Shown: piece after piece, positions 23,504 to 59,256 of the stretch | Numbering within the stretch: position 1 is the stretch's first letter | Layout of the letters: each line of letters begins with the position of its first letter | Assembly: GCA_905235745.1 (NCBI GenBank) | Contig: CAJOMN010000014.1 | Location: 1 to 64,000 of the forward strand | Source of the DNA: an uncultured Lachnospiraceae bacterium | GTDB lineage: Bacteria > Bacillota > Clostridia > Lachnospirales > Lachnospiraceae | Length of the DNA: 64,000 bases | Direction of reading: 5' to 3' | Translations under genes and position numbers: made by a program | The notes under the pieces: generated by a model | What the model was told of the DNA's origin: nothing | Seen by the model: the letters and a program-made list of their open reading frames with translations, nothing else | The model's database searches: none

Positions 23504-24346
23504 TCATGGATTATTATTGTCGTTCACTATATAATAGGGTCCCAGTGCCCGTGCGAAAGGACATACCTCTTCAAGCCTGCTCATCATGTTCTGTCCCCGG
23601 GGATCGGTCACATCCCCTTCTATCTCCACGTAAAAATAATACTCCCATCTTCGGCTCTTCAGAGGTCTTGAATGAAGAACTTTCATGTTGTATCCGTTAT
23701 CCGCAATGATCTGCAGCGGGACGAGCAGAGAGCCTGCCGTATTATTAACGGTAAACAAGACAATGAAGCTCTTCTCCTGCCCGGGTATATCTATGTGTCC
23801 GCAGTCACGCGATACAACAACAAATCTTGTGGTATTGTCATCTCTTTCGTTAATCTGTTCATCAAGTACCTTGAGACCGTATATCGCGGCTGTTTCGATG
23901 CTTGCGATCGCAGCCACGGATATATCCTCCATTTGGGCAACCTGTCTGGCGGCTACGGCAGTATTGGTTGCCTGCACGACTTCATATCCCCTGCTGCGTA
24001 TATATTCATCACACTGCTCCAGAGCTTTCGGCTGGCTGACGACCTTTTTGATGTCCTGTATCCTGCTTCCCCTGATGCCGAGCAGATTCTGGACAACCGG
24101 GAGGGCATAAAGAGCATTTACATACAGCCGTCCCTCAAAGAGAAGATCCATTACATCGTTTACTTCACCCGAATAACTGTTCTCGATCGGAAGAACAGCC
24201 ATATCGCATTCTTCGTTTTCAACCGCTTCATATGCTTTCTTAAAACTCCCGAATGAATAAAATGCTTCTCCGGGAAAGAGCTTCCTCGCAACAATATGTG
24301 CAAAAGCACCTTCTATTCCGGTATATGCGATCTTTAATCCGCTCAT
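23504..24346 (-). CDS. pheA: Prephenate dehydratase with ACT domain
   Basis: Converts prephenate to phenylpyruvate for phenylalanine synthesis; 280 residues, monofunctional (no chorismate mutase domain). The PDT domain (about 1-185) includes LPIENSYSGEV and the catalytic NTTRF; the ACT domain (about 195-275) with HSRP and YYFYVEIEG binds Phe for feedback inhibition. The start at 24346 follows GAGGAGG by 6 bases; an upstream in-frame start is poorer. It is preceded by a Phe leader peptide and terminator. Confidence 0.93.
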   Translation of the reverse strand: MSGLKIAYTGIEGAFAHIVARKLFPGEAFYSFGSFKKAYEAVENEECDMAVLPIENSYSGEVNDVMDLLFEGRLYVNALYALPVVQNLLGIRGSRIQDIKKVVSQPKALEQCDEYIRSRGYEVVQATNTAVAARQVAQMEDISVAAIASIETAAIYGLKVLDEQINERDDNTTRFVVVSRDCGHIDIPGQEKSFIVLFTVNNTAGSLLVPLQIIADNGYNMKVLHSRPLKSRRWEYYFYVEIEGDVTDPRGQNMMSRLEEVCPFARALGPYYIVNDNNNP

Positions 24347-24407: not shown

Positions 24408-24440
24408 AAAAAAGCGGCCCGGCTGATTATCCGGACCGCT
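24408..24440 (-). terminator. pheA attenuator terminator hairpin
   Basis: A 10-bp stem AGCGGTCCGG/CCGGGCCGCT (one G-U pair), 8-base loop and six T follow. It lies between the Phe leader peptide and pheA. Bases 24432-24445 (CTTACAGCGGTCCG) can instead pair with 24477-24490 (CGGACCGATGTAAG), 13 of 14 positions, forming an antiterminator. Confidence 0.85.
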
Positions 24441-24464
24441 GTAAGTGCAATCTATGATCTGGCA

Positions 24465-24548
24465 TCACAAATCACCCTTACATCGGTCCGACGTAAAGGC
24501 AAAAAAGAAAAATGCAGATGCTGTCAAATCATGTACTGTGTTAATCAT
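24465..24548 (-). CDS. pheL: pheA leader peptide (27 residues, Phe-rich)
   Basis: A short open frame whose codons 13-18 read FFFFAF (24495-24512), closely resembling the E. coli PheL peptide with its Phe runs. GGAAG lies 10 bases before the ATG. Directly after the Phe codons comes the antiterminator strand 24477-24490, and the stop codon is 12 bases further. Ribosome stalling at Phe codons would free that strand to pair with 24432-24445 and block the terminator; completed translation would cover it. The gene name is by analogy. Confidence 0.82.
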   Translation of the reverse strand: MINTVHDLTASAFFFFAFTSDRCKGDL

Positions 24549-24581
24549 ACTCAATAAACTTCCGATCAAAACTGATACTAT

Positions 24582-24606
24582 CGTAAACGAAACAGATCCG
24601 TTCACT
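24582..24606. promoter_or_regulatory. Palindrome copy 2: candidate operator at the pheA transcription start
   Basis: Half-sites CGTAAACGAAAC and GATCCGTTCACT around one base; right arm matches the consensus fully and left arm at 10 of 12. It lies just after the pheA -10 box, the expected position of a repressor site. Confidence 0.5.
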
Positions 24607-24615
24607 ATATGCGAT

Positions 24616-24645
24616 AATATACCCTGTATAATATATCATTGTCAA
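24616..24645 (-). promoter_or_regulatory. Sigma-A promoter for pheL-pheA-DAHP synthase
   Basis: Consensus TTGACA at 24640-24645 and TATATT at 24616-24621 with an 18-base spacer, about 68 bases upstream of the leader peptide. The whole 362-base gap 24347-24708 is thereby accounted for: promoter, palindrome, leader peptide, antiterminator/terminator and pheA ribosome site. Confidence 0.75.
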
Positions 24646-24708: not shown

Positions 24709-25983
24709 TTACTTCGGTAAATTCGAGATAAAGAGGTAATCTCCGCCCTCGTCCTTAAATGTTACACAGTATTCCTCACCCCACTGACCATAATACGAGA
24801 TCGCATATTCCCCGTTTTCGTAATGCCCGCCCGTGACCGAAACAGTGATCTGATTGGTATCGCCGTGTTCCATTAAATAGAGATCGTAATCCTCAAGATA
24901 TGTCCACTCTAACTCTAAGGGGCATTTCATTTCGGAATAATCCATCCCCGAGGTCTTTTTGACATAATTCCTGACATCTTCGCCCTTCATCACGGTAAAA
25001 TCAGTATAGATCTCCTCTTCTCCGGTTGCTTTCAAATAGGCGTTCAGTATCTTTTCGGACGGATAATTCTGTGTAAACCCGGCTCCCACATAAAAGACTT
25101 CGTCCCAATCGATCCGGGACGGATCAAGGTATGTGCTTAAAAGGAACCCGTAATATCCAATGGAATTCAGCTTCTTTTCGACATCCTCCAGTTCCTCATC
25201 CGTCATATTATCGGGAAGGGATATTGCGTGAAATGCAGCATCCAGCTTTTCTTTCCATACCGCCGGGACCTCAATATCCGCTATACGCTCTCCTTCCTCA
25301 AGCGTAATGTATTCTTTATCCCCGGATTCTTCCTTTGTTTGCGACATAACATATTCACAGGTATCATCGTCATATTTGAACCATATATCGTTTGCACCGT
25401 TTACGCCATATGAAATTGATTCCACGAGAGTTCCGTCAGGATAAACTGTCGCGATCCCCCGGTACGGAGCGCCATAAGCATATACCGGAGCTTCTTCATC
25501 AGAATAGATATCGATCACATCCCCGTATGCATCCGTGATAAGCAGCTCCTCTTTTCCGTCCCCCGTAACGTCCAGGTACTGATACCATACTTCATTATTC
25601 ATATATTCACCGGGCCAGCCATATTCAATAAGCGCTGTCTGAAACCCCATCATCTCCATCTCTGAGTAATCCAGATCGCCATCCTGGATCGACTTATACA
25701 TATAAAGGATATCCCCGTAAGGCACTCCTGCAGACTCCATATTGGATTCGGTATCATCTTCCGTTTCTTCGGAATTATTTGTCTCATCATCGGAAATGTT
25801 TCGATCTTCCTCGTTTTCCTCCCCGGAAGCGTCTGCCTCTACCGTATTATCCGGCACTTGTGCAGTATCTTCTGTCGTTGCACCGGCATCCTCCGGCTTA
25901 ATATCTCCGCTTTTACCGCATCCGCACAGCATTCCGGATAAAGCCAGAATGAGTATTCCCGTAATAATTATTTTATTCTTCAT
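24709..25983 (-). CDS. Secreted lipoprotein of unknown function
   Basis: A 424-residue predicted lipoprotein: basic start MKNKII, hydrophobic core, and lipobox LCGC with the lipidated Cys near residue 21, followed by an acidic low-complexity linker (about 25-80, rich in E/D/T/S). The remainder is a globular region with FxGxG-repeat-like segments such as YLDVTGDGKEELLITDAYGD, a Ca2+-binding-like DxTGDGxxEL motif seen in FG-GAP/VCBS-type proteins. GAGG is 6 bases before the ATG. No neighbour suggests a role. Confidence 0.7.
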   Translation of the reverse strand: MKNKIIITGILILALSGMLCGCGKSGDIKPEDAGATTEDTAQVPDNTVEADASGEENEEDRNISDDETNNSEETEDDTESNMESAGVPYGDILYMYKSIQDGDLDYSEMEMMGFQTALIEYGWPGEYMNNEVWYQYLDVTGDGKEELLITDAYGDVIDIYSDEEAPVYAYGAPYRGIATVYPDGTLVESISYGVNGANDIWFKYDDDTCEYVMSQTKEESGDKEYITLEEGERIADIEVPAVWKEKLDAAFHAISLPDNMTDEELEDVEKKLNSIGYYGFLLSTYLDPSRIDWDEVFYVGAGFTQNYPSEKILNAYLKATGEEEIYTDFTVMKGEDVRNYVKKTSGMDYSEMKCPLELEWTYLEDYDLYLMEHGDTNQITVSVTGGHYENGEYAISYYGQWGEEYCVTFKDEGGDYLFISNLPK

Positions 25984-26147
25984 GATAAACCTCGTTTTCT
26001 TTTTCATTTCACCTGCCGGCCGCCCTTGCATTGGAAATTTGATAAAATCGTTGAGAATACTTTATCATTATTAAGATGTCTTAGTCAAATCCGATATCAA
26101 AACAAAATACCCCACCAGGTTGCGGCAGGATGTCTTCTGAGTCTTAA

Positions 26148-59113: not shown

Positions 59114-59256
59114 GTAGCCGGACACGCTGCGCTCAATTCAGGCACCCTTGCGGCACACAAGGACATCCGTTTAGTGCTGCTTCATTCCTGACCTGACACG
59201 ATTCGCGGCGCTATGTTGCGCAAGACCCGAATCTCAACACACAACCTGCCGGCTAC
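59114..59256 (-). ncRNA. ffs: Signal recognition particle RNA (small, Alu-less form)
   Basis: The ends pair (GTAGCCGG with CCGGCTAC), inner segments pair as a rod (GATTCGGG with CCTGAATT, TTGCG with CGCAA), and 59174-59197 is the domain IV hairpin: GTCAGGTCAGGAATGAAGCAGC, the SRP54-binding motif with the GGAA loop kept and the closing C-G pair replaced by A-U. No Alu domain is visible in the 143 bases. There is no terminator before the Mrr-like gene. Confidence 0.85.

Follow-up and report, generated by a model that had tools for sequence, protein, structure and literature searches.

How is the pheA-aroF operon of a Lachnospiraceae bacterium adjusted to the supply of phenylalanine, in a lineage of the Firmicutes, where T-boxes are the usual amino-acid sensing device? 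This question is raised by a 64,000-nucleotide stretch of contig CAJOMN010000014.1 from an uncultured member of this family (hereafter, the window), in which an earlier note, made from the letters alone, had proposed a pheL-like attenuator before pheA. The sequence features collected in Table 1 and their comparison among relatives indicate that the region is very probably a ribosome-mediated transcription attenuator, which would sense the supply of charged tRNA-Phe and control the pheA-aroF operon.

The leader element extends from 24645 to 24407 on the minus strand and ends 60 nt 5' of pheA, which is followed by an aroF-type DAHP synthase gene, the same arrangement being observed at the relatives. 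The promoter, the ribosome site and the 27-codon ORF with its FFFFAF stretch, as described in the earlier note, could be read directly. The scan returned three promoter-like sites per 1 kb against 2.0 expected, so that the promoter site alone is little proof; among the 17 distinct copies of the element described below, 15 have a TTGAC box 5' of the start of the leader ORF. The fold of the 221-nt leader had a z of -4.1, and none of 200 dinucleotide shuffles was equally stable.

Table 1. Features of the leader and of the operon that follows it in the window, together with the loci that encode the short form of the dehydratase.
Feature	Positions or loci	Strand	Evidence
Sigma-70-like promoter: TTGACA (-35, at 24645), 18-nt spacer, TATATT (-10, ending at 24616)	24616..24645	-	Motif scan, 11/12 consensus matches
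Ribosome binding site GGAAG, 10 nt 5' of ATG	24559..24563	-	Sequence
Leader peptide ORF, 27 aa, MINTVHDLTASAFFFFAFTSDRCKGDL, stop TGA	24465..24548	-	ATG 24548, TGA 24465; open in 17/17 distinct copies
Control codons F13-F16 and F18 (FFFFAF)	24495..24512	-	Sequence
1:2 hairpin, 14 pairs including G-U	24472..24502	-	Folding; 94.3% of cells paired in 15 sequences
Antiterminator hairpin, basal 7+6 bp (24490-24477 x 24445-24432) and apical 12 bp (24475-24464 x 24458-24447)	24432..24490	-	Folding, covariation
Intrinsic terminator 3:4, 10-bp stem (24440-24413; 8 G-C, one G-U), then T5	24408..24440	-	97.6% of cells paired, 15 sequences
pheA, prephenate dehydratase, 280 aa (P0001)	23504..24346	-	Pfam PF00800, E 2.2e-51
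DAHP synthase, AroFGH type, 342 aa	22436..23464	-	TIGR00034, 256 bits (cut-off 173.2)
Short dehydratases, without the C-terminal part of the window's protein	L013-L020, L056, L063, L078, L081, L082, L085		

A protein search in relatives matched 31 of 41 genomes and gave 67 loci in the named genomes. A clade of 20 distinct loci was defined by a stand-alone dehydratase and a downstream DAHP synthase 83-100% identical to that of the window (the pairs L003/L033, L014/L077, L019/L088 and L020/L093 having the same leaders). The full leader was present in 15 of these 20 loci, whereas L015 conserves only its terminator end, on the reverse strand, and L003, L013, L056 and L078 have no element at all; these four same-operon loci without the element, and the one with a remnant, count against the attenuator reading. 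With L109 and L110, two more distinct copies that both lie 5' of pheA and aroF, the total comes to 17, every one of which precedes pheA-aroF. The covariance model R1 reached at least 112 bits in 12 of 37 genomes of the genus and, when 392 genomes of the order were scanned, only in the genome of the window and in G041 of the same genus, so that the element is limited to a subset of a single genus.

Within the genome of the window, the R1 search returned this coding-strand copy only (118.4 bits), with three weak matches at 18.8-20.4 bits, one of which is the same site on the opposite strand. As to other biosynthetic genes, trpE (at about 4808 of the window) is separated from the divergent gene by roughly 67 nt, and no His-rich leader or terminator was seen by eye in the 336 nt 5' of the ORF matching HisG. 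A small bacterial SRP RNA (69 bits) lies at 59133-59232 on the minus strand. Outside the genus, R1 matches at 27-36 bits occurred in 11 genomes, a count from which the search filters lose some weak ones. Eight of these 11 were read: six had no Phe-rich frame within 200 nt, and in L126 such a frame was located at or behind the terminator. In L118, from another family of the order, the nine-residue MKNFQFIFT stands before the terminator at the R1 match, with no Shine-Dalgarno sequence and no long frame behind seen. Two more weak matches were set aside: L114 (30.6 bits, within the genus) has a terminator before a gene reading by eye as an asparagine synthase, and L115 (29.8 bits) is the remnant of L015.

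In the comparison of the 17 distinct copies, in which start codons were chosen by a script, the leader frame was intact in all of them with four to six Phe per leader, so that each appears to carry a short ORF rich in codons for the amino acid of the pathway. Across the 17 leaders both types of Phe codon are used (62 TTT and 24 TTC), and the order, length and spacing of the Phe run vary among copies, a variation in order and spacing that would be expected of codon counting. The stop codon lies 9 nt past segment 2 in 16 copies and 6 nt past it in the remaining one.

The leader RNA can adopt the 1:2 hairpin together with the 3:4 terminator or, alternatively, an antiterminator that unites segments 2 and 3. 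The terminator, located between the leader and the first gene, has two pairs with double changes in 15 sequences; the earlier note had called it perfect, and its 10-bp stem and T5 stand, the stem being perfect only if G-U is counted. For the 1:2 hairpin, tested against shuffles in the same number of sequences, no covariation beyond that of the shuffles was detected. The basal antiterminator pairing proposed in the earlier note, 13 of 14 positions, was confirmed, and its two strands proved to be joined by an apical stem into a single hairpin of -33.2 kcal/mol in the window, with the leader UGA stop placed in the 5' strand of this apical stem. In the alignment of 17 sequences, which was fitted to 1:2 and 3:4 and not to the antiterminator helix, 98.6% of the basal cells were paired (shuffles as high, 1 of 500), five cells were changed on both sides (reached by 0 of 500 shuffles), three pairs had both sides changed (8 of 500), and the covariation score was attained by none of the 500 shuffles. 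Slid versions of the helix were 16-46% paired, and the 15-sequence alignment gave 99.0% of cells paired for the antiterminator. The apical stem was 90.9% paired, with a covariation score reached by 1 of 500 shuffles and three pairs bearing double changes (11 of 500). When RNAalifold was run without constraints on 14 of the 17 sequences, it returned a 21-pair hairpin made up of 13 basal and 8 apical pairs, with double changes in six pairs. The single-hairpin fold was observed in all 17 distinct sequences, with basal pairs of 7+6 or nearly so and small mismatches of the apical stem in some of them. The leader therefore has a mutually exclusive antiterminator with covariation support, and the composite antiterminator, with a covarying apical stem around the leader stop codon, is new in this analysis. 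The apical stem can explain the conserved block TTTGTGATG, and its position suggests that nucleation of the antiterminator would be blocked by a ribosome resting on the stop codon.

The end of the peptide, TSDRCKGDL, is strongly conserved among the copies, a feature that would also suit an arrest peptide, in which the nascent leader peptide stalls the ribosome upon free Phe or another ligand. Yet the same stretch encodes segments 1 and 2, and in L034 and L036 the peptide changes too where the RNA changes in a compensated way, TSDRC being altered to TPGRR (TPGRRKGDL); the Phe run, moreover, is of varying order and length between copies. We consider an arrest peptide very unlikely.

Read as an attenuator, the parts observed, with their conservation, covariation and spacing, point to the following course of events, from leader translation to the response to Phe. 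With ample Phe, the ribosome would read the whole leader and halt at the UGA inside the apical stem of the antiterminator, where it would cover this stem and much of segment 2, so that segment 3 would be free for segment 4 and transcription would end. With charged tRNA-Phe in short supply, the ribosome would wait on the Phe run, masking segment 1 but not segment 2; the long antiterminator, with its 13 basal bp and its apical stem, would then form before segment 4 is made, and the polymerase would proceed into pheA.

Folding energies place a restriction on this scheme. Across the 17 sequences, the antiterminator ranged from -25.1 to -33.8 kcal/mol and the 1:2 and 3:4 hairpins together from -30.5 to -36.5 kcal/mol, the latter being lower in every sequence, by 0.8 to 7.8 kcal/mol. 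We modeled the ribosome as 30 nt kept unpaired. In RNAs truncated behind segment 3, pairing of that segment with the GTAAG half of segment 2 was 0.60-1.00 for the tested last-Phe-codon stalls (15 of 15 leaders) and 0.00 with the ribosome at the stop (again 15 of 15), a value that is partly given by construction, since the ribosome at the stop covers this half. By this measure, the control codons are predicted in all 15 leaders to be placed such that a stalled ribosome would mask segment 1 and free segment 2, while a second measure, which scores pairing of the terminator 5' arm with anything upstream, was less clear. It gave 0.28-0.91 at the stop versus 0.49-0.88 at the other stalls, excluding the last Phe, and thus separated the stop state poorly from the Phe stalls; for the last Phe codon it gave 0.20-0.52, in conflict with the 0.79-0.99 obtained by the 2:3 pairing measure, and would make this codon unproductive. 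In a shuffled-middle control, the mean was 0.56 with 1 of 200 above 0.95, a threshold that tells nothing as the real leader itself reaches only 0.82. In full-length equilibrium folds, the terminator was favored in every ribosome state, Phe stalls included (15/15), with an antiterminator maximum of 0.24 in the window, 0.40 in L085 and lower values in the other 13; switching with ribosome position was not found at full-length equilibrium in the 15 leaders. Equilibrium switching is not strictly a defining feature, as attenuators act during transcription. Since the terminator is favored at full-length equilibrium, antitermination must rest on the order of folding, and in these models the dependence on the antiterminator forming first is the weakest link of the explanation.

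In the truncated RNA, the 2:3 pairing was preferred without any ribosome in 13 of 15 leaders, which makes an intrinsic switch thinkable, that is, one acting independently of translation as a T-box, a riboswitch or a protein-bound antiterminator; T-boxes are, in addition, present in the genus, with zero to three matches per genome and 35 of 37 genomes matched. At the leader, no Rfam family was detected at the gathering threshold, and the four matches obtained at E up to 10 were far below their cut-offs; no match of the T-box riboswitch (RF00230) was found there, as the earlier note had held. The single T-box match of the own genome (92.4 bits, cut-off 93) is on another contig (L001, 1501-1744), before an ORF reading by eye as an ABC-type lipoprotein (MNKIMKKAAVLL...). 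The Rfam search of 19 whole clade loci, 14 with the element and five without, likewise gave no T-box, a tRNA being the sole match. A translation-independent switch would also leave the conserved Phe ORF unexplained, and we accord it hardly any probability.

Phe-rich leaders were also observed before pheA beyond the genus. Class B comprises eight loci from other Lachnospiraceae (L045-L049, L051, L053 and L054), which encode an FFFFF(I/M)NAMDFKL leader of the FFFFFINAMDFKL type with a strong terminator, roughly 140-260 nt 5' of the start of the pheA match; the DAHP synthase encoded behind their pheA shares 65-67% identity with that of the window. Seven loci of Treponema/Spirochaetia (class C: L037-L039, L042-L044 and L098) have Phe-rich leaders, mostly with FFSFEAFSF, and dehydratases extended at the N-terminus by a stretch the size of a chorismate mutase; L043 and L044 are alike, and L041 showed no such leader. 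The class C antiterminator pairs CGATAAAG with CTTTATCG in L037, L039 and L042 and is varied in L038, L043 and L098. Occlusion of five class C loci gave mostly 0.67-0.86 on Phe and 0.19-0.56 at the stop, with lower values at F18 and F23 of L038 and at F3 and F8 of L042, while class B showed no clear switch. An Rfam search of 19 loci with other Phe leaders returned no match. As judged from their sequences, the Phe-rich leaders of the other Lachnospiraceae and of Treponema appear unrelated to that of the window. Further Phe/Tyr-rich short ORFs were noticed 5' of longer Clostridia dehydratase genes, at L052 (2460-2606), L067/L070, L068/L097 and L004.

The prevalence of such leaders was also assessed with a detector of ORF plus terminator 5' of pheA, which was applied to 97 loci, redundant ones among them. 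With 3 of 8 residues required, Phe was called in 20 of these loci, 3 of the 20 calls lying on a frame other than that of the leader, and the next residue, Leu, in 9; with 4 of 8 required, there were 17 Phe calls against at most 1. Phe calls numbered 0-1 in ten dinucleotide shuffles. In a sample of the order comprising 73 of 79 dehydratase matches (the own genome and five already included elsewhere being left out), a Phe/Tyr leader with terminator was found in at least 1 of 73 loci (L202; shuffles 0-1), a lower bound because most leaders of class B and every one of class C escape the detector. These counts bear on a rival reading, according to which the hairpin is the ordinary terminator of the upstream gene (24709-26031, same strand) and the Phe-rich ORF is due to chance. 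Apart from that same-strand gene, this reading would be favored by the L015 remnant, where the terminator end lies about 100 nt 5' of pheA, close behind the stop of another frame, while the leader and segment 2 are absent, owing either to a deletion or to an assembly join. It is opposed by the promoter-like site between the upstream gene and the leader, by the homologue comparison outlined in the earlier note, in which all 17 copies proved to retain the Phe ORF in frame and, with compensatory changes, the antiterminator pairing, and by the excess of Phe calls over shuffles; we regard it as extremely unlikely.

If the attenuator reading is adopted, the enzyme itself raises a further point. Counted from the match start, 14 of the 20 distinct clade dehydratases end at 177-188 residues and the other six at 271-280; 10 of the short forms and five of the long forms are accompanied by the full attenuator, and L109 and L110, which were found through the element, are also of the short kind, with the match ending at residue 180 and the DAHP synthase next. 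Residues 193-260 of the window's protein gave a weak match (23 bits, far below the cut-off) to the N-terminal part of a Phe hydroxylase model, a stretch that we take to be an ACT domain. It is conceivable, though doubtful, that Phe-tRNA attenuators of pheA have multiple origins among gut Clostridia and Treponema, their leaders sharing no sequence, and that in the genus of the window they largely replaced Phe feedback via the C-terminal (ACT-like) part. That the enzyme has lost its C-terminal part in many of these operons prompts the question whether transcript control can replace allosteric control, and the 17 natural copies, which show covariation and have the stop codon within the antiterminator, offer a good model of leader evolution.

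Ribosome-mediated attenuation is of a long-known kind, and the E. coli pheL-pheA system resembles the window in its Phe-rich leader and in the competing antiterminator and terminator before pheA. The E. coli design invoked by the earlier note is thus shared in principle, but the geometry of the ORF differs and the full-length equilibrium switch is missing. The pheL ORF stops 5' of segment 2 (segments assigned by eye), whereas that of the window runs on through segments 1 and 2 and has its stop within the antiterminator. E. coli pheL switches clearly both in the full-length sum (0.75-0.83 at five of seven Phe positions, 0.00 at the last two) and in the second measure, unlike the window leader at full-length equilibrium, and its truncated RNA without a ribosome gives 0.05, in contrast to the preference for 2:3 in 13 of 15 leaders here. 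The E. coli pheA is, by annotation, fused to chorismate mutase, while the dehydratase of the window stands alone with the DAHP synthase next to it. Scored by R1, E. coli pheL-pheA reached 19.7 bits (E 0.007 over 166 kb), a value that does not demonstrate kinship in sequence.

Within the Firmicutes, two papers describe His leader peptides before hisZ/hisS in bacilli (PMC2965389) and attenuators of the his operon in members of the B. cereus group and in some Eubacteriales and Erysipelotrichales (PMC9413887); these, too, are cases of leader-peptide attenuation, which differ from ours in amino acid, gene and sequence. The ilv-leu attenuator of S. aureus, for which PMC5794164 gives genetic evidence of leader-peptide attenuation, likewise serves a Firmicute amino acid operon, but with a Leu-rich leader and branched-chain genes. 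For Acholeplasma aroF, attenuation has been suggested through the uORFC-13-1 motif (PMC8632094), in which a candidate uORF containing one or more Phe codons precedes a terminator and the gene of a DAHP synthase; it differs from our leader in lineage and gene order. In the open-licence literature we found no account of a Phe leader preceding pheA in either Lachnospiraceae or Treponema; an earlier mention elsewhere is possible, and the novelty is provisional because the search was confined to such papers. On this provisional footing, the window leader would add to known ribosome-mediated attenuation a pheA case with a geometry of its own and, if true, Phe and pheA-aroF would join the ribosome-mediated attenuators of the Firmicutes, in a lineage where a T-box would be expected.
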